In this document: positions 575-26,423 of the stretch, piece after piece | How positions within the stretch are numbered: the stretch's first letter is position 1 | Layout: the number at the start of each line of letters is the position of its first letter | Origin: a virus | DNA: 42,070 nt | Strand: one strand, 5' to 3' | IMG/VR virus record: IMGVR_UViG_3300048918_000122 | Span: 1-42,070 of that record | Made by a program: the position numbers and the translations under genes | The notes under the pieces: model-generated | The model's input: the letters and a program-made list of their open reading frames with translations, nothing else | The model's database searches: none | What the model was told of the DNA's origin: nothing

Positions 575-1422
575 GCCGCGCGCTCTCCCTTGTTCCAGTT
601 GTCAGAGGGCTCGGCTGCAAAATACCAGCCGTCCGCTTTCGTCTCGGGGTGCTGCGTGGTCATGCCGGGCTTGTGGCCGGTCACGCGGCATCGCTCAGCC
701 CATTCGGGGCTATCTCTGGCGATGAAGACTTTCGGCGGGCCGCTGGGCTTTGCAATCGGCACTCGCTTGGCCATGGCTTCCGAAATGACCGGGACGTAGT
801 AGCGCCACGACTGGATGCCGTTCTTGACGGCGGGCCTCGACCGCACAATCGGGAGAACGTCGCGCTCAAGATCGGCTTGGCGATGAAGAAGCTCGACGAT
901 CGGAGCGAATGACCCCAGCCGATCGGAGCCTGCGGCCTCGCAGCAGCGCCTTTCTGCCTCATCCAAATCCAAAACAGGCGCGCTCGCGCTAGATGCTGCG
1001 CTAGCAGCATCTTCTGTTTCTTCCTCTGTATCTGTCTCTGCCTCTGGGGGCGTTGCAGAACGTCCCTGCAACGTTGCATTGCCGTTGCGTTTCGCTTCAC
1101 GGTGTTTCCGAGAACGCTCTGTGCTCTTATCGCTCTCGTATTGACGGGCCTTCCAAGCGGTTACGGCGTCAGCCCCGATCATCCCGATCTCTGACATACC
1201 GTCGAAGACAGCCTGGATAGTCGCCAGCGGCTCGCACAGGGCAGCGGCCACACGGCGCGGGGTTGTCTCGAAGCGCCCGCCGTCGTCCGTCTCTGCGGCA
1301 CTCTCAAGGATGGCGTGCCAAACGGCGATGGCGACAGAGCGCGAGCATCCGGCGATGACCGAGACTTCGGCCAGCTTGTCGTCCTTCACGGTGCCGGCGT
1401 AGGCACGATACCAGCGGCTCAT
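571..1422 (-). CDS. Phage replication initiation protein (O-like), 283 aa
   Basis: The N-terminal ~110 residues (MSRWYRAYAG...DDKL, then a helix-rich DNA-binding region ending ARQYESDKSTERSRKHREAKR) match the layout of alphaproteobacterial phage and prophage initiators. That layout is a winged-helix domain, a basic linker and an acidic low-complexity hinge (about residues 125-150, rich in E, T, S and A). The C-terminal ~130 residues probably contact host helicase or its loader. The start at 1422 overlaps the upstream stop by ATGA. The hinge-coding DNA holds clustered CGTTGCA heptamers, a purine/pyrimidine-skewed tract and a palindrome (991-1089), a layout like the lambda origin within gene O. 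The role as initiator is inferred from this layout and context. Confidence 0.75.
   Translation of the reverse strand: MSRWYRAYAGTVKDDKLAEVSVIAGCSRSVAIAVWHAILESAAETDDGGRFETTPRRVAAALCEPLATIQAVFDGMSEIGMIGADAVTAWKARQYESDKSTERSRKHREAKRNGNATLQGRSATPPEAETDTEEETEDAASAASSASAPVLDLDEAERRCCEAAGSDRLGSFAPIVELLHRQADLERDVLPIVRSRPAVKNGIQSWRYYVPVISEAMAKRVPIAKPSGPPKVFIARDSPEWAERCRVTGHKPGMTTQHPETKADGWYFAAEPSDNWNKGERAA
991..1089. other. Candidate phage replication origin inside the initiator gene
   Basis: Four heptamers of CGTTGC(A/G) type lie at 1051-1057, 1067-1073 (inverted), 1072-1078 and 1083-1089. Next to them is a ~38-base strongly pyrimidine-rich plus strand (1011-1048; purine-rich on the coding strand) and a 22-bp palindrome with 9-bp arms (AGATGCTGC, 991-999, and its complement, 1004-1012). 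Iterons plus a strand-skewed tract within the initiator gene is the arrangement of lambdoid origins. Function is inferred. Confidence 0.5.
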
Positions 1423-1745
1423 TGGGACCACTCCTCAATGAATTCTGCCACTGCACCCGGCGAAAGATTGAACCATTCAAATCCCACGCGATGGTCTGAA
1501 AATCGCTTGTGGATCTCGGATTCGAGCGCGGCGATAGACGCCTTGTCACCGGTCCATGTAGCGATCAGGAATAGCCGACGCGAGTTCCCGGCTTGTAGCG
1601 AAGACATGCGCCACACCGGGTGATCAGCCCTGCCAATCTTGACTAGATTGGTGCTGCCCTCTTCGCCAATCACATACAGGTAGCGAACATTCGACGACCG
1701 GGATGCGGGGACCAGACCAGGGTGGATTGAGCGGATGCGTGCCAT
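1419..1745 (-). CDS. GIY-YIG-superfamily (T5orf172/MUG113-like) protein with an initiator-like N-terminus, 108 aa
   Basis: Residues ~22-98 carry the hallmarks of the T5orf172/MUG113 branch of the GIY-YIG fold: a YLYVIG strand, LVKIGRA, a conserved Leu/Gln segment (SSLQAGN) and the LESEIHKRF...EWF closing motif. Such proteins are predicted nucleases or DNA-binding proteins of unproven role. The first ~12 residues (MARIRSIHPGLV) instead match the usual start of alphaproteobacterial phage replication proteins, so the gene looks like a recombination chimera. It shares one base of stop/start overlap with the upstream gene and overlaps the initiator start by ATGA. A second protein of this family is at 10950-11516. 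Confidence 0.7.
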   Translation of the reverse strand: MARIRSIHPGLVPASRSSNVRYLYVIGEEGSTNLVKIGRADHPVWRMSSLQAGNSRRLFLIATWTGDKASIAALESEIHKRFSDHRVGFEWFNLSPGAVAEFIEEWSQ

Positions 1746-4379: not shown

Positions 4380-4612
4380 CCTGCCAGCCTCTCGGGTTGG
4401 GGCTTGGCGATGGGCGCCGGCCAAAGATCGGGGCGCCAAAGATGACGCGGGACCTCGGTTGCCTTCTCCAAGCGAATGGCCATCAACGGGGAGACCCGGC
4501 CTGCCTTCAACGCCTTGTGAATGGCGACCTGAGAGCACCCGGCCCGCTCGGCCAGTGTGGTTTGTGAACCGGCGTGCTCAATGGCCGCCTTCAGGAGAGC
4601 TAGGGTGTCCAT
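4376..4612 (-). CDS. YdaS/Cro-like helix-turn-helix regulator, 78 aa
   Basis: MDTLALLKAAIEHAGSQTTL is followed by AERAGCSQVAIHKALKAGRV, a compact helix-turn-helix typical of YdaS/Cro regulators, and the usual end VPRHLWRPDLWP. It is the first gene of the early-left operon and divergent from the repressor, the position of cro. The start at 4612 has no ribosome-binding site. The only convincing -10 box (TGTTATATT, 4629-4621) ends 8 bases upstream, so the message may be nearly leaderless. It probably represses the repressor promoter during lytic growth. Confidence 0.85.
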   Translation of the reverse strand: MDTLALLKAAIEHAGSQTTLAERAGCSQVAIHKALKAGRVSPLMAIRLEKATEVPRHLWRPDLWPAPIAKPQPERLAG

Positions 4613-4629
4613 ACCCAAGAAATATAACA
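4612..4629 (-). promoter_or_regulatory. Early-left promoter, extended -10, near-leaderless
   Basis: On the minus strand TGTTATATT (4629-4621) fits an extended -10 (TG-N-TATAAT type). Transcription would start at about 4614-4612, at the ATG of the Cro-like gene. The -10 overlaps operator 4624-4637, so repressor binding would block it. Confidence 0.45.
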
Positions 4630-4637
4630 TTCGGTAT
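4624..4637. promoter_or_regulatory. Repressor operator OL1
   Basis: ATAACATTCGGTAT. Half-sites ATAAC and ATACC (the latter from the complement of GGTAT) are separated by 4 bases, matching the two operators right of the repressor gene. Confidence 0.6.
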
Positions 4638-4646
4638 GGCAACGCA

Positions 4647-4660
4647 AGCCTAAAAGGTAT
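4647..4660. promoter_or_regulatory. Repressor operator OL2, weak (one good half-site)
   Basis: AGCCTAAAAGGTAT keeps a perfect GGTAT half-site with the 4-base spacer, but the other half is degenerate. Centre-to-centre spacing to its neighbours is 23 and 27 bp. Confidence 0.35.
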
Positions 4661-4673
4661 CGCGACAGCCGAT

Positions 4674-4687
4674 ATAGCTTCGGTTAT
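4674..4687. promoter_or_regulatory. Repressor operator OL3
   Basis: ATAGCTTCGGTTAT. Each half differs from ATACC/GGTAT by one base. It lies 11 bp before the repressor ATG and so is placed for autoregulation. Confidence 0.5.
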
Positions 4688-4697
4688 CGACGACGAC

Positions 4698-5345
4698 ATG
4701 GCTTTAGGTGAGCGAATCAGGGACGAACGCGAAAAGCGGGGCTGGTCGCAAGCCGACCTTGCCCGCCGCGTTGGCGTATCTCAGGTGACAATCAACAAGA
4801 TTGAGAACGGTCAGACCGTCAAATCAAAGTGGTTGCCTGAGATCATGGTTCTCCTGAATATACCCATCGCGGGGAGCTTACCGGAGGAGCCACCAGAAGC
4901 GCCTTTGGAAGACATTGCGATCTCGCGGCACAAGATGCCGCTAGACATCCCCGTGAAGGGGGTAGCTGTGGGAGGCGATGACGCGGACTTTTCTTTCAAT
5001 GGGACGATTTCGGAGTATGTCAGGCGTCCGCCGGGCCTAACTAGGTCCAATGGCGTCTATGCGGTTCACGTTGTCAGCGACAGCATGGCGCCGCGTTTCG
5101 ACCCGAACGATCTGCTCTATGTCAGCTCGCTCAAGATGCCCGTGCCCGGCGATTATGTGATCGTCGAGCTTCACGCCAATCCTGACGGCACGCCGGGGAA
5201 AGGGTACGTCAAGCGCCTGGTGCGGCGCAGCGGGTCGAAAATCACTCTGCGCCAGTTTAATCCGGCGGACGAGTTCGACCTGGATGCGTCTACCGTCTTG
5301 AACATCCACCGGGTCTTCACGAACAACGAGCTATTTGGTTTATAA
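4698..5345 (+). CDS. CI/LexA-like phage repressor with S24 self-cleavage domain, 215 aa
   Basis: Residues ~3-56 are an XRE helix-turn-helix (RGWSQADLARRVGVSQVTINKIENG). Residues ~85-210 are an S24 (LexA/UmuD) peptidase with catalytic Ser129 (VSDSMAPRF) and Lys172 (GYVKRLV). The probable cleavage region is VAVGG (residues 89-93), where the usual Ala-Gly is Val-Gly. The protein should hold the prophage silent and be inactivated by RecA-stimulated cleavage. The start at 4698 gives a normal repressor N-terminus; a longer open frame from 4557 would run through the operators. There is no ribosome-binding site, so the maintenance transcript may be leaderless. Confidence 0.92.
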   Translation: MALGERIRDEREKRGWSQADLARRVGVSQVTINKIENGQTVKSKWLPEIMVLLNIPIAGSLPEEPPEAPLEDIAISRHKMPLDIPVKGVAVGGDDADFSFNGTISEYVRRPPGLTRSNGVYAVHVVSDSMAPRFDPNDLLYVSSLKMPVPGDYVIVELHANPDGTPGKGYVKRLVRRSGSKITLRQFNPADEFDLDASTVLNIHRVFTNNELFGL

Positions 5346-10661: not shown

Positions 10662-10953
10662 CGACAAGATCGTTGAGGCGGTCGCGGTCGCCATTTACCA
10701 AGGGCGTAACGGCAAAGGCTGTGTCCATTGGGGCCGCTTGCCGCACTCGCATCAAGCCCCGTACCTGTCCGACGCCCGCGCCGCGATCACCGCGTATCAG
10801 GCAGAGGCGTGGCAGGGGCACAAGCTCGTACCGATCGAGCCGACCGAAGCGATGATGGACGCGGCCATTGCCGCTGTTGAGAAGCCCTGCTTCCCGCAGG
10901 ACATTTACGCGGCGATGGTCGAAGCAGCCCCCAATCCCCCGGCTTCACCATGA
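10651..10953 (+). CDS. Conserved small phage protein, 100 aa
   Basis: The N-terminus (MKHDDKIVEAVAVAIYQ) and the motif HKLVPIEPTEAMMDAAIAAVE are common in phage accessory proteins of proteobacteria. No activity has been shown. It overlaps the nucleotidase end by 11 bases and the next gene by ATGA. Confidence 0.75.
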   Translation: MKHDDKIVEAVAVAIYQGRNGKGCVHWGRLPHSHQAPYLSDARAAITAYQAEAWQGHKLVPIEPTEAMMDAAIAAVEKPCFPQDIYAAMVEAAPNPPASP

Positions 10954-11516
10954 GTAGGGCTGTCGAAACCACCGATACGGCTCCTGGCATCTATGCGGTG
11001 CGCATGATCGGAGACCACCAGCTCGTCGGGTTCTTCACGCCCCCTTCAATGGCATGGTTGCACTATTGGGTTGACTCTGTCTGCGAGCCTTCCGAGTGCG
11101 AATATGCGGTCATCAAGCACTTGTGCTTGCTGTGGCCCAGGAACGCCCCGCCCATCCCGTGGCCCGACGATTATTTCGACAAGGAAGACAGCGAGACCGA
11201 GTTTGATAGCCACCTGATCGAAGATCCGATGATGTCGGACATTGAGGAAGCCAAGTGGCTCCCCCTCATGTCGCAGAGCTACGTCTATTTCGCGAAAGCT
11301 GGCGACCGCGTGAAGATCGGCTCCGCGAAGGATGTCGGCAAGCGCATGAAGCAGCTTCAAACCGGCTGCCCGGACAAGATCCAGGTCGTGAAGCTGATTA
11401 GCGGCGGTCGCGACGTGGAAGCATCGCTTCACCGTCAATTCGCTCGCCATCGCGCTGTTGGCGAATGGTTCAAGATCGAAGGGGCATTGGCGACATATCT
11501 GGAGGACCGACTATGA
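10950..11516 (+). CDS. T5orf172/MUG113 (GIY-YIG-like) protein with N-terminal extension, 188 aa
   Basis: The C-terminal ~80 residues (SYVYFAKAGDRVKIGSAKDV, KQLQTGCPDKIQVVKLI, ASLHRQFARHRAVGEWFKI) form a T5orf172/MUG113 domain. The N-terminal ~100 residues are a separate, aromatic-rich, acidic domain with no match I know. It is the second protein of this superfamily in the genome; the other (1419-1745) lies in the opposite early operon and has a different N-terminus. It overlaps the excisionase gene by ATGA. Confidence 0.75.
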   Translation: MSRAVETTDTAPGIYAVRMIGDHQLVGFFTPPSMAWLHYWVDSVCEPSECEYAVIKHLCLLWPRNAPPIPWPDDYFDKEDSETEFDSHLIEDPMMSDIEEAKWLPLMSQSYVYFAKAGDRVKIGSAKDVGKRMKQLQTGCPDKIQVVKLISGGRDVEASLHRQFARHRAVGEWFKIEGALATYLEDRL

Positions 11517-19160: not shown

Positions 19161-19766
19161 TCAAAGCGTGGCTGCGTGGCAGTTAGACGCTCGACAAGTT
19201 ATGTCGCGGATGAAGGAATGGCCGGCTGCGGAGACATGTTGAGCGTCGACATAGAGACTCGTGAAGGCCGCCGGGTTCGTGTTCAGCGTCGTGAAATAGA
19301 CCTGCATGAACTCAAAATAGAGATCCACGAACGGCACGCCGCGCAGCCAAGCGACTTCCTTGATTGCGTCATTATAGGCTGGGATATTGTCGATGAAGAT
19401 CGTGGAGCGAACGAGCGGCGGGGTGAACAGCGTCACCTTGGCGCCGGCATCGAGAGCGGCGTCGACCATCGCTAGAGTATTGTCGCGATAGGCCTGCACA
19501 CCGCTGCTTGCCGAGCCGGCATTGATCGCATTCCCCAGATCATTGATGCCCGGCGAAATGCCGACACTCCCGCAGCCGTGGCAAAGGAGATCAGCCTGTA
19601 TCCTCGCTAGCATCATGCCGGAGGTATTGCCGCCGATGCCCGCATTGATGATGGTATCGAACCCGCGCTGAGTTCCGATCTTCAGGGGGAAGGTGTCGGA
19701 AAGAGCAATGCCGTTCGCAGGGCGCGCAGCGGTGTTGCTGTCGCCAATAAAGCCGATCGTCGTCAT
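19161..19766 (-). CDS. SGNH/GDSL hydrolase, 201 aa
   Basis: Block I is IGFIGDSN (catalytic Ser10), block II NAGIGGNTSG, block III SPGINDLG (Gly73, Asn75) and block V DAQHVSAAG (Asp174, His177). This gives a complete SGNH esterase. Placed between tail fibre and lysis genes in the late unit, it could be a virion-bound esterase that deacetylates host surface polysaccharide, or a lysis-stage enzyme. A second, different SGNH protein is encoded at 33688-34884. No signal peptide is visible, which favours a virion component. Confidence 0.88.
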   Translation of the reverse strand: MTTIGFIGDSNTAARPANGIALSDTFPLKIGTQRGFDTIINAGIGGNTSGMMLARIQADLLCHGCGSVGISPGINDLGNAINAGSASSGVQAYRDNTLAMVDAALDAGAKVTLFTPPLVRSTIFIDNIPAYNDAIKEVAWLRGVPFVDLYFEFMQVYFTTLNTNPAAFTSLYVDAQHVSAAGHSFIRDITCRASNCHAATL

Positions 19767-19774
19767 GGAGAGCC

Positions 19775-20818
19775 TCAGGCGAAAGCGCGAACGATGTAGC
19801 GCCAGTTGGCATTCGTGATGCCGCCCAGAGCGCCCGTGGTTTTGTGGATGATGCCAAACGTGTTGGTCGCGGACCCGAACCGGACATAAACATTTGTCGC
19901 GTCCGAGTAGATGCCGACGCCGCGTGAATTGGTCCCGTCGAAATTCGATGAGCCCGAGTCGTGGAGCACATCGCCTGGCGAATAGCCGACATCGGCAGTT
20001 GCGCATTTCAGAAACGCGTCGATCGTCTTGGGAGCGACGCCAAGGCCATGGGGCAACGTCAGCAAGCCGGCCGCCGTGATTGTCTGATCGCCGCTGTCAT
20101 AGCCTTTCGAGAAGATGGGTACGGACCATGTGCCATCGGCCTGAAGCACTTTCTTAGCCGCCGCATCGCCGGCCGCAGGAGCCGGAACAAGGCCTTTCGT
20201 CCCGCCCGATCCGCTATCGCCTACGAGGTTGGACAGCAGAGCCGTCTGAGCCGCCGCGCTCGCTGCGCCAGCCATAGACCGGCCGGCGGCAGTCAGCGTG
20301 TAGGTCGAGGCCGCAGAGGCCGACGTGTAATAGGTCGCGGTGTCGGCAGCCCATGTCTGACCGGCAAGCGTCAGGAGCTTCGAGCTGAAAGCCTGAACGT
20401 CCGTGCCGGGGACAAGCACCAGCGCTGTGCGAGCTGCCGAAGCGTTCGCAGCCCCGAGGAGAGATAGGCCGAAGGTGGTTGCCTGGCTATCGTCCAGCTT
20501 GGCATCGAGCGCAGACTGAAGACCGCTGACGCCCGAAATCGCAATCGGCAGTGTGGGCGGGAAGGTCGAGGGCTTGTTGACGATGTTGTTCCAGTCGGCC
20601 GCAACAGCGGCGGCCGGGACCAGTTCCGTCGCGCCTGTCCCCGGATCATAGGCGAGGTACTGCGCTGTCGCGCCAGGCGCCGGGTTCTGCGAATAGGTCG
20701 TGATGTCCCAACCGAAAGTGTAGGTGAGACCGGCCTTGGTGATGACCACCGGGCCGCTGCCGGTGACCACGGCGGGGAATGTCGGGATCAGGTTGAGATT
20801 GAAGGCGGGAATGGTCAT
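19775..20818 (-). CDS. Tail fibre/receptor-binding protein, 347 aa
   Basis: It has many Ala/Ser/Thr/Gly-rich repeats, the common fibre linker ISGVSGLQSALDAKLDD, and SLLGAANASAARTALVL and KKVLQADGTWSV motifs. The C-terminal ~100 residues (SGDQTITAAGLLTLPHGLGVAPKTIDAFLKC...) form a beta-rich knob domain found at the ends of several phage fibres. The start at 20818 is fixed by an ATGA overlap. It probably trimerises and recognises the host surface. Ser/Thr-rich composition makes precise domain limits uncertain. Confidence 0.85.
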   Translation of the reverse strand: MTIPAFNLNLIPTFPAVVTGSGPVVITKAGLTYTFGWDITTYSQNPAPGATAQYLAYDPGTGATELVPAAAVAADWNNIVNKPSTFPPTLPIAISGVSGLQSALDAKLDDSQATTFGLSLLGAANASAARTALVLVPGTDVQAFSSKLLTLAGQTWAADTATYYTSASAASTYTLTAAGRSMAGAASAAAQTALLSNLVGDSGSGGTKGLVPAPAAGDAAAKKVLQADGTWSVPIFSKGYDSGDQTITAAGLLTLPHGLGVAPKTIDAFLKCATADVGYSPGDVLHDSGSSNFDGTNSRGVGIYSDATNVYVRFGSATNTFGIIHKTTGALGGITNANWRYIVRAFA

Positions 20819-21169: not shown

Positions 21170-22306
21170 TCAGAGCTTCTGATACCAAGTTCCGAGGCGT
21201 GTCGGCTGGACGACCGTCATCGGAACAGGTGCCGCGTTGTTGTTGATCGTCACCGAAATCCCAGTCGTTGCGGTGGACGTATTGGTGATGACAAAGGCCG
21301 GGGACTGGTTGGCACCAGCAGCCAAGCTCGCGGCGCCAGAGCTTGCCGTGGTCGTGTGGAAGTGGCCCGGATCTGTCACGCTGTTCGTATGCGTGTGCTG
21401 CCCGACTTCCTTCGCGGCTTGCGTCCTGCGCGCTGCGCCACCCATCGAGCCGACGACCTGAGCATCCGGGAAGTCCGAGAACCGCGCTGCCGTGCCGCTA
21501 GCCGTCGCGTTGGCGTTGGCGCTCAGCGTCAGGGTGGTCCCCGAAATGTCGGTGATCGTCGTTCCGGCCGGGATGTTGGCCGAAACAACGTACATACCGA
21601 TGCCGAGGCCGGTTGCGCTGGCCACGGTGGCGCTGGTGCTCAGGTTCGTGGTGCTAATCGTCGTGATCGTCTGAATGCGACTGGCCGCCGCTCCGCCCAT
21701 GTCATCCAGACCAGCGGCAAGGATGCCCTGCATGGTCGGGACGCCGATCGTCTTATTGGCTGCGAAGTCAGCCGAAGCCGTCGCGCCACGACCGCCTGAG
21801 ACCGGCGCCACCGAATCCGGGCAATTGTTCCAGAGGTAGGTGAACAGCGCCTCGGTATCGGCATTGGCGCGCTCCGTGGCGCCAGAACCGGTCGAACCGA
21901 TGGTCTTGTCGTTCATCCGCACCCAGCCGGAACGGACGCCGCCCTGAAGGCGCCACATCGTATCGCCGGGCTGGAGGATCTGGTCGGCCGTGACGATGAT
22001 GCCACCGCCGCCGCCCGAAGACGCCGGGGCCGGGTTCTGCACCGTCAGGACGTTTGGGCTGATGGCTGAGCCCGTTGCCGTCGTGACGCGGTATCCGAAA
22101 GGGCCATAGGGGATGAAAACTGGCGGGAAGACGCCGTTTGCGTCAGCCACGACGGGGCTTGAATGCGGAACGGCCCCGTCATCGGTCGTGTAGACCGGCA
22201 GAGGCGTGCTCGTCCCTCCAACATAAAAGTATGCCAGAGCCGCGCCAGCGCGATCGCCTGTGCTGGGGTTGAAGACGGGGATGGGAACAGGGTTCCAGAG
22301 AAGCAA
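21170..22306 (-). CDS. Tail collar/fibre protein with histidine-rich tip, 378 aa
   Basis: The N-terminal ~95 residues (PVFNPSTGDRAGAALAYFYVGGTSTPLPVYTTDD...FGYRV) match the virion-anchoring domain of podoviral fibres. The middle has a collar-type region (MWRLQGGVRSGWVRMNDKTIGSTGSGATERANADTEALFTYLW). The C-terminal part has QHTHTNSVTDPGHFHTTT, histidine pairs like those that bind metal along trimeric fibre tips. It starts at TTG (22306), supported by a GGGAG ribosome-binding site and the lack of a nearby ATG. A terminator lies 12 bases upstream. Confidence 0.85.
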   Translation of the reverse strand: MLLWNPVPIPVFNPSTGDRAGAALAYFYVGGTSTPLPVYTTDDGAVPHSSPVVADANGVFPPVFIPYGPFGYRVTTATGSAISPNVLTVQNPAPASSGGGGGIIVTADQILQPGDTMWRLQGGVRSGWVRMNDKTIGSTGSGATERANADTEALFTYLWNNCPDSVAPVSGGRGATASADFAANKTIGVPTMQGILAAGLDDMGGAAASRIQTITTISTTNLSTSATVASATGLGIGMYVVSANIPAGTTITDISGTTLTLSANANATASGTAARFSDFPDAQVVGSMGGAARRTQAAKEVGQHTHTNSVTDPGHFHTTTASSGAASLAAGANQSPAFVITNTSTATTGISVTINNNAAPVPMTVVQPTRLGTWYQKL

Positions 22307-22768: not shown

Positions 22769-22884
22769 TCCCGGTGCGAGCCGCTTTATCCCCCGCCTCA
22801 AGCGCGGCAGTGCCGAGAGAGACGATATCTCCACCCCAATTCGCCGCACGACGGTGTGACATGGTACACTCCTGAGATGAGACG

Positions 22885-22906
22885 GGGGCGCCTGTTAGGG
22901 CGCCCC
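22885..22906 (+). terminator. GC hairpin downstream of the lone plus-strand gene
   Basis: Perfect 8-bp stem GGGGCGCC / GGCGCCCC with a 6-base loop. There is no U-tract on either strand, so termination is uncertain. Confidence 0.35.
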
Positions 22907-22932
22907 TCGGGGTGGTCAGATGCGGTGGACGG

Positions 22933-23244
22933 TTAGTGCGCCAGTGGGCTTTCAGGCCAAGTCGCGTCGCAAATTTTCTCAGCCAGACCGCGACAAACAT
23001 CGATGAGCGCGGCGACCTGATCGAGTGCAGTGTTCCGGTTCGGACCCGACCCGAAATCCATTCCGCTGACTAGAGATTCCGTCACATCCAGAATGTGCTT
23101 CATCGTGGCCGCATCGTTCACTGCGGAGTTCAAAGCCCTGTAGAAGGCGTCGCCATCCAAAGCGGGCTTGGGTGAGAAATCCGCGTTCTTGGCACCAAAT
23201 GTCAGAGAATCGGCACGAGATTCATTGTATGAGAGAGCATCCAT
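22933..23244 (-). CDS. Unknown protein downstream of the antirepressor, 103 aa
   Basis: ATG at 23244 with CAGGAG upstream. The N-terminus is polar (MDALSYNESRADSLTFGAKNADFSP); the rest is helical (FYRALNSAVNDAATMKHILDVTESL, then VAALIDVCRGLAEKICD). Its place 70 bases after the antirepressor suggests co-transcription from the arc-like promoter. No function recognised. Confidence 0.7.
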   Translation of the reverse strand: MDALSYNESRADSLTFGAKNADFSPKPALDGDAFYRALNSAVNDAATMKHILDVTESLVSGMDFGSGPNRNTALDQVAALIDVCRGLAEKICDATWPESPLAH

Positions 23245-23314: not shown

Positions 23315-24037
23315 TCAGTGGAGCGGTTCGTTCAGAAGCTCAGCGAGCTTGACGAGGCCCTTCGCGGTGACGAGGCAGCGCGTAGAAACGCGCTCGCGCC
23401 CCTGATCGTCGATGTAGAGATGATCCGCGTGTTCGAGGTAGCCGGCTTGGATCTTGTCCTGATACCCGACCCAATTCTTGTTGCCGGCGCGCTTGTAAAT
23501 CCACCGGCGCGCCGCCATCAGGTTCGTCAGGTCGATGGGCCGAACACCCAGCGTCTTCGCCGCGTCCCGAATGCACATCGAGCCTTCGGCGGCGTCGATG
23601 CGTTCCAACTTCTTCACCTGCTCTGTCTGAACGGCGATGATCTGGTCCTTCTCCGCAACCTGCTTCTGAAGGTGGTCGAAAACCGCCAGCATGACCTTGG
23701 GGTCAGACGGATCGAAGACTACCGGCGCTTTCGCGAGGCCCATCTCCAACTCAGCCCAACGGTCAACGAGGCGGGCCGTGAACTCAGGGGAGAGCTGGGC
23801 GACTACGATATAACTGTCGCGCTTGACGAGCCGGTACTCGCCAGCTGGCCGTCCGAGCCCGTCGAGGTATTCCACCATCGGTGGAAGATCGATTACTCCC
23901 TTGTCAGCCAGCCGCTCGATCGTCCGCTTGACGCTGTCATGGCGCGCGCCGAGCAGTTCAGCGATCTCCCTGCTCGACATGGTGAGCGGGCCGCCATTGC
24001 CGCCGCCAACGCTCAATGCGATATTCGTTGATGTCAT
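23315..24037 (-). CDS. ant: Antirepressor (Rha-like N-terminus plus ANT/KilA-C-type C-terminus), 240 aa
   Basis: Residues ~20-105 (MSSREIAELLGARHDSVKRTIERLADKGV...YLDGLGRPAGEYRLVKRDSYIVVAQLSPEFTARLVDRWAELE) are a phage regulatory Rha domain. After a short coiled coil (KQVAEKDQIIAVQTEQVKKLE), residues ~145-235 (SMCIRDAAKTLGVRPIDLTNLMAARRWIYKRAG..., GRERVSTRCLVTAKGLVKLAELL) form the ANT/KilAC domain found in P22 Ant. It should inactivate CI-type repressors. ATG at 24037 has GAAGGAA upstream. It follows an Arc-like gene, as in P22 immI. Confidence 0.9.
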   Translation of the reverse strand: MTSTNIALSVGGGNGGPLTMSSREIAELLGARHDSVKRTIERLADKGVIDLPPMVEYLDGLGRPAGEYRLVKRDSYIVVAQLSPEFTARLVDRWAELEMGLAKAPVVFDPSDPKVMLAVFDHLQKQVAEKDQIIAVQTEQVKKLERIDAAEGSMCIRDAAKTLGVRPIDLTNLMAARRWIYKRAGNKNWVGYQDKIQAGYLEHADHLYIDDQGRERVSTRCLVTAKGLVKLAELLNEPLH

Positions 24038-24123
24038 CTCGGTTCCTTCAAAACCGGGTTGATGGGGAGCCGCGTTACGAGCGCGGCTGTCATTCGGGCG
24101 ACGGCGGGGCGAGTTTCCTAGGC

Positions 24124-24282
24124 TCAGTGCCCCGTCGTCGCTCTCTCCTGGCTCTGCCTGAGAGCCTGGATGATCAGCGTGTTCTGCGAAGCGGCTTCTC
24201 GCTTCGCCTTCTTCTCCAGCCAAAGCTTCAGGTCCGCAGGAATGCGCAGCGTCAGCTTCGGCATCTCTTCACTCGGGTACAT
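24124..24282 (-). CDS. Arc-like ribbon-helix-helix repressor, 52 aa
   Basis: The start at 24282 (GGAGA ribosome-binding site 4 bases upstream) gives MYPSEEMPKLTLRIPADLKLWLEKKAKREAASQNTLIIQALRQSQ..., a minimal ribbon-helix-helix protein with the beta strand KLTLRIP and two helices. P22 Arc is 53 aa and likewise precedes ant. It probably turns down its own operon late in infection to limit antirepressor. Confidence 0.85.
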   Translation of the reverse strand: MYPSEEMPKLTLRIPADLKLWLEKKAKREAASQNTLIIQALRQSQERATTGH

Positions 24283-24385
24283 TGCGTCTCCATGGTTGCG
24301 ACTCGCGTTATGATCATGGGGCCAAGTCGCCATGGCGTCAAGTCGCACCCATTGAATTATCAACGCGAGTTGGCATCACTCCGCC
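24283..24385. promoter_or_regulatory. Divergent promoter/operator region between Arc-like and Mnt-like genes
   Basis: A 9-bp inverted repeat (ACTCGCGTT at 24301-24309; AACGCGAGT at 24362-24370) flanks two direct copies of AAGTCGC (24324-24330 and 24340-24346). On the minus strand TTGACG-N17-CATGAT is a good promoter for the arc-like/ant operon. The plus-strand promoter is not clear. Confidence 0.55.
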
Positions 24386-24790
24386 ATGACTGACGAAACC
24401 AAATATCCCAGCGACGCCGCAGACCGCTTTCAGGTACGCCTCCCGCCAGGACTGCGAGAACGCATCGCTGAAACGGCGAAGGCCAACAGCCGCTCCATGA
24501 ACAGCGAGATCGTCTCCACACTGATGGAGGCATACCCCGAGACGTTGCCTGAAGCGCGTCGTCTTTATCGGCGCATCTACGACTTAGTGGGACACAAGCC
24601 CGGCGAAGAGTTTGGTGAGCTCCACAAAGCGATCGACGATTACCTCACCTACATGGCTCGGGCGACGGGCGAAGAGATCGCCAAGATGTTTGAACAGCCG
24701 TTCGATGAAGAAGAACCCAGCCCCTCCGCCACCGGTGTGATCAACAAACTTTACGGTGATCCTCTTCGCAAAAGGCCAAGGCCGGAATGA
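24386..24790 (+). CDS. Mnt-like ribbon-helix-helix repressor, 134 aa
   Basis: Residues ~12-50 (DRFQVRLPPGLRERIAETAKANSRSMNSEIVSTLMEAYP) form an Arc/Mnt-type ribbon-helix-helix domain. The remaining ~85 residues are an acidic, helical extension that may drive oligomerisation, as the C-terminal coiled coil does in Mnt (83 aa). It is transcribed away from the Arc-like gene and probably keeps the antirepressor silent in the lysogen. It couples by ATGA to the following membrane protein gene. Confidence 0.82.
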   Translation: MTDETKYPSDAADRFQVRLPPGLRERIAETAKANSRSMNSEIVSTLMEAYPETLPEARRLYRRIYDLVGHKPGEEFGELHKAIDDYLTYMARATGEEIAKMFEQPFDEEEPSPSATGVINKLYGDPLRKRPRPE

Positions 24791-25050
24791 AGCTCCTCGG
24801 CAAGAAACCCACGATCGATCACGACCCGAACGAGTTCGGGCAGAAGCCCGTTCGATTTTGGCTCATGCGGCGGATGGTGATGTTCGTTCTTTGCCTTGCG
24901 ATGATCGGGGTAGGAGGATGGCTAATTCGACCATCGCTATGGGGTTACGATCAATGGCCAAGCGGCTGGGCTATGCTGGTGGCTGGCGGCCTGATCGGCA
25001 CCGGGATCGGGATCCTTTGGACTGACTACATTGAACTGAGCGATACCTAA
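24787..25050 (+). CDS. Two-helix membrane protein, SieA-like by position, 87 aa
   Basis: Membrane helices at residues ~24-47 (FWLMRRMVMFVLCLAMIGVGGWLI) and ~60-79 (GWAMLVAGGLIGTGIGILW) are separated by a short Trp/Tyr-rich loop. It is co-translated with the Mnt-like repressor, so it is expressed in the lysogen. In P22, sieA, an inner-membrane superinfection-exclusion gene, sits at the same place between gene 16 and mnt. Sequence similarity to SieA (about 160 aa) cannot be claimed. Its 3' end overlaps the convergent ejection gene by 4 bases. Confidence 0.65.
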   Translation: MKLLGKKPTIDHDPNEFGQKPVRFWLMRRMVMFVLCLAMIGVGGWLIRPSLWGYDQWPSGWAMLVAGGLIGTGIGILWTDYIELSDT

Positions 25051-26423
25051 GCGCCGCCTTCACGAAGGAACCGCATCAGCGCGGCAGGGTCTGCCCCCAA
25101 TTGCTGCATGGTTTGCGGCTGCCGGTCCTGCAAGATTGCAGGGACGCCCAACCCCATTATCCCGGTATGGTAGCCCATGTCCCGCGCTCCGGGCTGCGCT
25201 GCGCCTAGCATCTCCTGATAAAGGGGGCTGCGCTGGCGGGTGACTGTGTCGACTGCCGCCAGTTCGCGGCGTGCCAGCGCGTTCTGGACCGACCTTGCAA
25301 GAGCGCCCACGATCGGTCCAGCGGCGGCACCGGCGGCTGCACCGCCAGGGCCAGCCGCTGCCGCCCCTGCTGCGGCGCCAAGACCGCCTGCAACGGCGGC
25401 ACCAAGGCCCCCGCCGCCACCGGTCATATTGCCAACACGGCGCAACGTGTTGCGGACGAAATCGCCGCCTACAAGCTTTTCGAGGAGTTGGATTTCCTCA
25501 GGGGTAAAGCCTCGGCTTCGCTTGGGGTCCGCGACGATATCGACGACACGCTGACGGAGGGTGTTGTCGAAATTTGTACCAGACCCTGATGCGGCAGCTC
25601 GAAGGTCGGCTTTCTCTTCGATGCCGGTGAGAGATTCGGAACGCTTGGCAGCAGCGGAGTTCGCGCGGGCGGTGGTAAGGGTTTGGCCCGCTTCGGCAGC
25701 GGGTCCAGCCACAACAGTGCGCGGATCTCCCTTGCCAATGAAATCATCAATCCCCTGAATAAGCCGACTTGCTGCAAGCTGCTCGGTGGGGTTCGAGAAG
25801 TCCTTTGCCGCGTGGCCGGCAGCTCGTCGCGCGGCTTCGAGGCCGGCAACGGTGACAACGCTCCCTTCGGGCGGGTTTGCAAATTTCCCGATGATGGCGT
25901 GGGTTTTTGGGGCAAGTTCGGCAAGGATGCCCTTTTGCTCAAGACCAGCTTTGACGCCGTTGATCATATCCGTAACGGCCGGCGTCGCATAGTCCACGCC
26001 CATCTCTCGCACGGCGTTGTAGCCAGCGTCAGCTGCTTCCTTGAGAGCGCCCGCTGTCGGAGCCGGGGCCTTGGGCGGGATGGTGCCAAGTTTCCCAGCT
26101 CGAATGGCGGGAGGAACGGGGGACGCGAAGCCAGAAAGTTCAAGAGCCCGACCGAACCCTTCGTCGGTGTTCAGGTCGATCTTGCCAGACATAACATCGC
26201 CCGGCGTCGTGAACGCGCGCTTTAGGCCGCCGATGATGCCAGCGTCGGTGTCGAATTGCGGGCGACCATCAGGCCCCTCACTGATGGGCAGAATTCCACC
26301 CTTCCAACGCTCGGACTCTGGCTTCGCTGGGGCGTATTTTGACCATGGCCCGTCAGCCGGCGGCGCGGGTGTTTCCGAAGAGGGCGCGGCAGGAGCGGCG
26401 TATTTTTCCCAAGGACCAGCCAT
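25047..26423 (-). CDS. DNA ejection protein, gp16/gp20-position, 458 aa
   Basis: The N-terminus has two GPW-x-KYA motifs (GPWEKYAAP and GPWSKYAP), seen in many phage internal virion proteins. The C-terminal third has a long Gly/Ala tract (GGGGGLGAAVAGGLGAAAGAAAAGP...AAAGAAAGPIVGAL) that could cross or enter a membrane. It is the last of three consecutive genes in the slot of P22 genes 7, 20 and 16, whose products leave the virion with the DNA. Overlaps the lysozyme-domain gene by TGATG. Confidence 0.75.
   Translation of the reverse strand: MAGPWEKYAAPAAPSSETPAPPADGPWSKYAPAKPESERWKGGILPISEGPDGRPQFDTDAGIIGGLKRAFTTPGDVMSGKIDLNTDEGFGRALELSGFASPVPPAIRAGKLGTIPPKAPAPTAGALKEAADAGYNAVREMGVDYATPAVTDMINGVKAGLEQKGILAELAPKTHAIIGKFANPPEGSVVTVAGLEAARRAAGHAAKDFSNPTEQLAASRLIQGIDDFIGKGDPRTVVAGPAAEAGQTLTTARANSAAAKRSESLTGIEEKADLRAAASGSGTNFDNTLRQRVVDIVADPKRSRGFTPEEIQLLEKLVGGDFVRNTLRRVGNMTGGGGGLGAAVAGGLGAAAGAAAAGPGGAAAGAAAGPIVGALARSVQNALARRELAAVDTVTRQRSPLYQEMLGAAQPGARDMGYHTGIMGLGVPAILQDRQPQTMQQLGADPAALMRFLREGGA

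Follow-up and report, generated by a model that had tools for sequence, protein, structure and literature searches.

The bipartite immunity of Salmonella phage P22 is a textbook circuit that has been studied in essentially one phage. Its second immunity region, immI, is read in the P22 record (AF217253) in the order 16, sieA (-), ORF59 (-), mnt (-), arc (+), ant (+), 9. Mnt keeps arc and ant off in the lysogen, Ant counteracts the CI-type repressor and Arc limits the burst of expression (PMC11016777), while the membrane protein SieA targets gp16 and gp20 (PMC10883804). In other P22-like phages the genes found at the same site have been described as "ant morons" (Villafane et al. 2008, PMC2629481).

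For the window, that is, the whole stretch of 42,070 nucleotides of viral DNA analysed here, the original prediction had proposed a second immunity region of this kind, made up of a small membrane protein, an Mnt-like repressor, an Arc-like repressor and an antirepressor. All four genes are present on the predicted strands with intact frames, and their order, orientation and position agree with sieA-mnt-arc-ant when matched against the P22 record. The locus is bounded on one side by the last ejection-type gene of the late operon (25047-26423, minus strand), assigned by its position and by relatives in L145, L085 and L093-L095. It is followed by the membrane protein gene (24787-25050, plus), mnt (24386-24790, plus), an intergenic region (24283-24385), arc (24124-24282, minus) and ant (23315-24037, minus). 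Between ant and the fibre/tail gene that forms the other boundary (21170-22306, minus; PHROG tail protein, E 3e-21) lies a small orphan ORF of 103 aa (22933-23244, minus), which adjoins DNA stretches common to the window and L145 and for which a Pfam search gave no family. The late genes of this phage are on the minus strand. A further gene of the fibre region (19161-20006, minus) has a lipase/esterase-like PHROG match (E 2e-10) and is a possible tail esterase, and two genes elsewhere in the window (1419-1745, minus, and 10950-11516, plus) carry T5orf172/MUG113 domains.

The portal of the window phage is of the P22 type (PF16510, 656 bits), and PHROG families for scaffold, coat and "DNA ejection" were also found among its head genes. 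Since the phage also encodes a CI-type repressor (4557-5345, plus; Pfam HTH_3, 47 bits, and Peptidase_S24, 34 bits) and an integrase of the tyrosine family, it is best described as a distant P22-like temperate phage. A relative found through its ejection genes is carried by a Sphingopyxis MAG, which fits the predicted alphaproteobacterial host. The suggestion that the locus might be a parallel assembly of the same circuit probably does not hold as a whole, because the portal, scaffold, coat and ejection families are those of P22-type phages, and we have revised it to a syntenic "ant moron" site with exchangeable components.

Both small proteins belong to the ribbon-helix-helix (RHH) family, as had been predicted. 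Mnt (134 aa) has an N-terminal Mnt/Arc-type RHH domain (Pfam Arc, PF03869, 52.9 bits, E 3.3e-14) and a long C-terminal tail, and against the PDB it matches AmrZ (1.4e-9), pArc (1.1e-4) and Mnt (8e-4); used as the sole query against viral contigs, it brought up no relative. Arc (52 aa) scores 18.3 bits with Pfam Arc, slightly below the cut-off of 20.4, has an Arc-like PHROG match (E 2e-6) and reaches 40.5 bits when scored against an independent profile from which the proteins of the window had been left out. A profile made from 13 Arcs in turn matches Mnt (2.5e-8) and Arc (8.8e-7) of the PDB. The AlphaFold2 model of the window Arc has two helices (pLDDT 83), and its top Foldseek match is the Arc-operator structure 1par, with a probability of 0.99 but a modest E-value of 0.035.

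The product of ant (240 aa) carries the predicted Rha domain at its N-terminus (PF09669, E 3.4e-10), followed by an ANT/KilAC domain (PF03374, E 3.3e-24), and matches PHROG 63, "anti-repressor Ant" (E 1.6e-55). The ORF extends to 24223, and the ATG at 24037 is the likely start. A homologue of P22 Ant can be ruled out, as the two proteins share no detectable similarity. With a Rha + KilAC protein in this place, the locus is an immI-type cassette by its architecture and site, not as a carrier of P22 Ant. Comparison with P22 and other phages confirmed the RHH proteins and the gene order, and showed no similarity of the antirepressor to P22 Ant or of the membrane protein to SieA; of the predicted P22-type second immunity, the locus architecture and a separate CI-type repressor stand.

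A consensus scan of the arc-mnt intergenic region predicts a promoter for arc-ant, P_ant, on the minus strand (TTGACG -17- CATGAT, 24341-24313). The same region holds a direct repeat (24315-24346) and an inverted repeat (24301-24309/24362-24370) as candidate operators, and the candidate operator repeats include AGTCGC repeats and a ACTCGCGTT/AACGCGAGT repeat; the excess of repeats over shuffled sequences is modest (p=0.02). Among 23 intergenic regions, that of P22 included, 17 have a -35-like TTGAC that reads toward arc, where 2.8 would be expected, and two have one that reads toward mnt, where the expectation is 3.0. The P22 element is followed by TATATT at 17 bp. The conservation across loci of this -35-like element of the predicted arc-ant promoter is new here. 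Repeat counts are not uniformly above shuffles, only some loci standing out (e.g. L145, L095, L094 and L016), and operators are therefore not claimed for every locus. As for a counterpart of the sar antisense RNA, a consensus scan found no plus-strand promoter-like site at the arc-ant junction.

We regard it as probable that the window locus serves second immunity, as an immI-type cassette or "ant moron" that is made of exchangeable parts and belongs to a temperate phage distantly related to P22. The genes, their families and their order are observed, whereas the mechanism that follows is inferred, from each step of regulation to the target of Ant and the role of the membrane protein. In the lysogen, the Mnt-like protein and the overlapping membrane protein would be made from a plus-strand promoter, and the Mnt-like protein would repress the divergent arc-ant promoter at the repeats in 24283-24385. 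Infection or induction would lead to brief transcription of arc-ant, upon which Ant would antagonise a CI-type repressor. This could belong to a resident prophage or to the phage itself, whose repressor, encoded at 4557-5345, is the expected target. Arc would afterwards shut off arc-ant. The membrane protein, co-expressed with Mnt in the lysogen, would most likely block entry of the DNA of related phages, as SieA does. The main rivals to this reading are that Ant is aimed at the repressors of other phages and that it is a Roi-like regulator; both are weighed below.

The membrane protein has two hydrophobic stretches in its 87 aa, according to hydrophobicity analysis. The start of its gene overlaps the end of mnt by ATGA, and the gene converges on the last ejection gene with an overlap of a few bases. 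Its counterpart in L145 stands in the same place and is 64-65% identical, and a search of 301 genomes from the family of the Sphingopyxis relative gave one weak match. It was ruled out as a SieA homologue, with its 87 aa, two hydrophobic stretches and no similarity to SieA. In five relatives that lack RHH genes (L146, L147, L148, L149 and L151), the last ejection gene is followed by a small hydrophobic ORF in antisense orientation, although the ORF of L146 fell below the hydrophobicity threshold used; in L150, neither RHH genes nor such an ORF were seen at the corresponding place. The fact that hydrophobic ORFs sit there without mnt-arc-ant suggests that, within the locus, the membrane gene varies less in its presence than the rest. 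The ORFs of these five relatives appear to be of unrelated types. Because SieA acts on gp16 and gp20, the membrane gene, which lies next to the ejection genes and apparently forms one operon with mnt, is best read as a putative superinfection-exclusion gene.

Related phages, located through their ejection genes, indicate how the cassette varies. L145 (76% identity in the last ejection protein) has the same gene order as the window and retains the membrane gene, with a different mnt-arc pair and a P63C-domain protein replacing ant. At the DNA level the two are homologous through the membrane gene to 24782, and the alignment is then broken until 23320, at the end of ant, so that the mnt-arc-ant block differs as one unit. 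Two short stretches that flank the exchanged block (24787-24864 and 22777-22919) may be recombination joints, as their identity to L145 is about 92%, compared to about 74% for most of the DNA around them. L093 has the antisense membrane gene alone, without mnt-arc-ant, and thus presents an empty site. In L094 and L095 the membrane gene is followed by mnt, arc and an antirepressor-type gene, whose product is a BRO-N/KilAC protein in L094 and a Rha/KilAC protein in L095 (both by Pfam). Their DNA is 84% identical up to a point inside the RHH domain of Mnt and 89% identical from shortly before KilAC, and their Mnt proteins have nearly identical tails and different heads. From these breaks it follows that the parts that differ are the reading head of Mnt, the operator region, Arc and the N-terminal domain of the antirepressor. 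The L095 region had no DNA relative among named phages. To judge from these alignments, the cassette is exchanged in blocks among sister phages, which is new here.

One possible explanation for this exchange is that the cassette serves mainly as a weapon against co-resident or superinfected prophages, with Ant hitting heterologous repressors, so that exchange would track the repressors of competitors rather than the phage's own CI. It would be in keeping with this that sister phages with 84-94% identity in the late genes on either side have antirepressors with different N-terminal domains, and antirepressors that act in trans against other prophages are known (PMC3121763). We consider this a tentative possibility, less probable than a second-immunity cassette whose Ant would act on a CI-type repressor, its own included.

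Loci of this kind recur. Among 42 viral records with a Rha/KilAC relative, PF03869 matches were found in 12, and 11 of these 12 have two matches; in every one of the 11 the two genes are divergent, and the arc-like gene lies directly upstream of ant; the twelfth pair was completed with a purpose-built profile, and no RHH match was found in the remaining records. Among named phages, RHH pairs occur in the late operons of Paracoccus phage Pyei1, Oslo, SPN3UB, KP12, ST11-VIM1phi8.1 and GF-2. Across all loci, named or not, the proteins encoded next to RHH pairs are of the P22_AR, Rha/KilAC, BRO, P63C and KilA-N types. Other small genes accompany several of these cassettes. In L094 (10539-10886), L095 (11289-11636) and L157 (5108-5428), the antirepressor gene is followed by one whose product has a signal-like N-terminus, and an ORF beyond mnt in L004 (6688-6972, minus) resembles, by eye, a HigB/RelE-type toxin. 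A gene adjacent to mnt (L263:4240-4755 and L257:1866-2378) is common to Edwardsiella phage GF-2 and an AT-rich viral contig, with 40% identity, and represents a recurring mnt-linked cargo family.

The nearest named homologues of the window Ant, at 37-40% identity, include the Roi proteins of HK629 and of Vibrio phages, and because of this and the lack of similarity to P22 Ant, its anti-CI action is to be taken at the level of annotation. The Rha/KilAC protein could accordingly be a Roi-type DNA-binding regulator of the lytic cycle and no antirepressor of CI, with the RHH pair timing its expression in the late operon; helix-turn-helix-like matches within the N-terminal Rha domain point the same way. 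Nevertheless, Roi/KilAC homologues that lack an RHH pair can belong to the early region, as in VW-6S, where a KilAC gene stands beside CI, Cro and CII, whereas ant of the window lies in the late operon, under Mnt and Arc, at the site of P22 ant. Moreover, related loci carry BRO/KilAC, P63C, KilA-N or P22_AR proteins instead, for which a common role is the simplest reading. A Roi-type function thus appears rather unlikely to us, and an antirepressor remains the preferred reading of ant.

In P22 Arc, the residues at positions 9, 11 and 13 contact DNA. The Arc and Mnt proteins of one locus often have an identical strand motif (e.g. HFRLR/HFRLR or PFPTR/PFPTR); the strand of the Mnt-like protein is HFRLR in L145 and QYKFM in L095. 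A short N-terminal region is said, in work by Knight and Sauer from 1989 (cited in PMC3325190), to set the operator specificity of Arc and Mnt. At positions 9 and 11, in P22 Arc numbering, Arc and Mnt of the same locus match in 57% of cases, compared to 15% with shuffled partners (p<5e-5; 22 non-redundant loci, the idea having been formed from 13 loci and then run on 22, with near-duplicates removed and with shuffles that treat loci as independent). The match persists within G+C classes, and the per-position excess is highest at 9 and 11. As Arc and Mnt belong to one family, such a match might also stem from one RHH gene having recently been duplicated or converted from the other, and not from selection for a common operator. 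However, the helices have no within-locus excess (0.337 vs. 0.324, p=0.17), and of the 66 strand residues that match only 26 have the same codon, which is evidence against a recent conversion. Both results disfavour this explanation, and we hold it to be improbable. The sharing of DNA-reading residues, toward which Arc and Mnt tend across loci in these comparisons, is new here. The window pair is not an example of the rule, as its strands, KLTLR in Arc and RFQVR in Mnt, agree only at position 13.

In loci with an HxRxR strand, the heptamer TGMCRCA, i.e. TG(A/C)C(G/A)CA, is found in five copies in L145, six in L094 and two in L157, and in at most one copy in each of the 19 other loci, the motif having been picked after inspection of L145 and L094. 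We propose that immI-type loci may be units of specificity that phages can exchange, and that Arc and Mnt of one locus would tend to recognise common operators by way of matched residues at positions 9 and 11. The operator, both heads and the N-terminal domain of the antirepressor could move together and leave KilAC, the membrane gene and the tail of Mnt in place; the operator of the HxRxR loci would consist of TG(A/C)C(G/A)CA repeats, and the P22 and window pairs would be less matched exceptions. We regard this broader proposal as evenly poised between right and wrong.

Several P22-like phages have a degraded ant or arc at the "ant moron" site (PMC2629481), but with four intact frames, conserved gene overlaps and promoter-like element, and complete alternative versions kept in sister phages, it is very improbable that the window locus has decayed or become neutral and now plays no part in regulation. 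A chance arrangement is contradicted by the gene order kept in L145 and by the recurrence of the divergent RHH pair among Rha/KilAC records, and chance ORFs are ruled out by the family matches and the conserved synteny.

Taken together, the window locus and its relatives show one architecture in combination with five or more kinds of antirepressor-type protein (P22_AR, Rha/KilAC, BRO, P63C and KilA-N), in both short- and long-tailed phages, and show that breakpoints of exchange can coincide with the borders of functional domains. From the agreement between Arc and Mnt, a simple rule can be drawn and tested as to which DNA a given pair recognises, and small genes that now lack annotation might thereby become switches whose behaviour can be predicted. 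For specialists, the novelty lies in the wider pattern of block exchange and matched reading residues.

Among the known systems, SieA of P22 (PMC10883804) resembles the window membrane protein in that its gene stands beside the ejection genes on the strand of mnt, and differs in its length of 162-164 aa with three membrane segments, compared to 87 aa with two, and in sequence, where no similarity is seen. In Paracoccus phage vB_PyeM_Pyei1, genes p52-p55 include annotated Arc-family, Rha/KilAC and divergent Arc-like proteins in the late operon, but the virion is of another type, with tail sheath genes, the set lies between the tail chaperone and tape measure genes, and another gene stands beside mnt. 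The enterobacterial tail-operon cassettes of Oslo, SPN3UB, KP12, GF-2 and ST11-VIM1phi8.1 likewise lie in the late operon and combine an antirepressor with two divergent genes of the Arc/Mnt type, and their arc-ant genes run in the direction of the late genes; these phages, in contrast, are long-tailed, and their antirepressors are of the BRO or P22_AR type where tested. Compared to immI of P22, the window antirepressor consists of Rha and KilAC instead of P22_AR_N and P22_AR_C, Mnt has 134 aa, with a longer tail, instead of 83, the membrane protein is not SieA and its gene overlaps mnt, apparently as one operon, and sar was not found in the consensus scan. The two loci nevertheless share the site from the last ejection gene to the tailspike or fibre gene, which is that of the "ant morons" of P22-like phages, as well as gene order and orientation, with two RHH repressors facing away from each other and the antirepressor downstream of Arc. 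In both, arc and the antirepressor gene are codirectional with the late genes, a membrane protein gene lies on the mnt side, and the locus varies between relatives.
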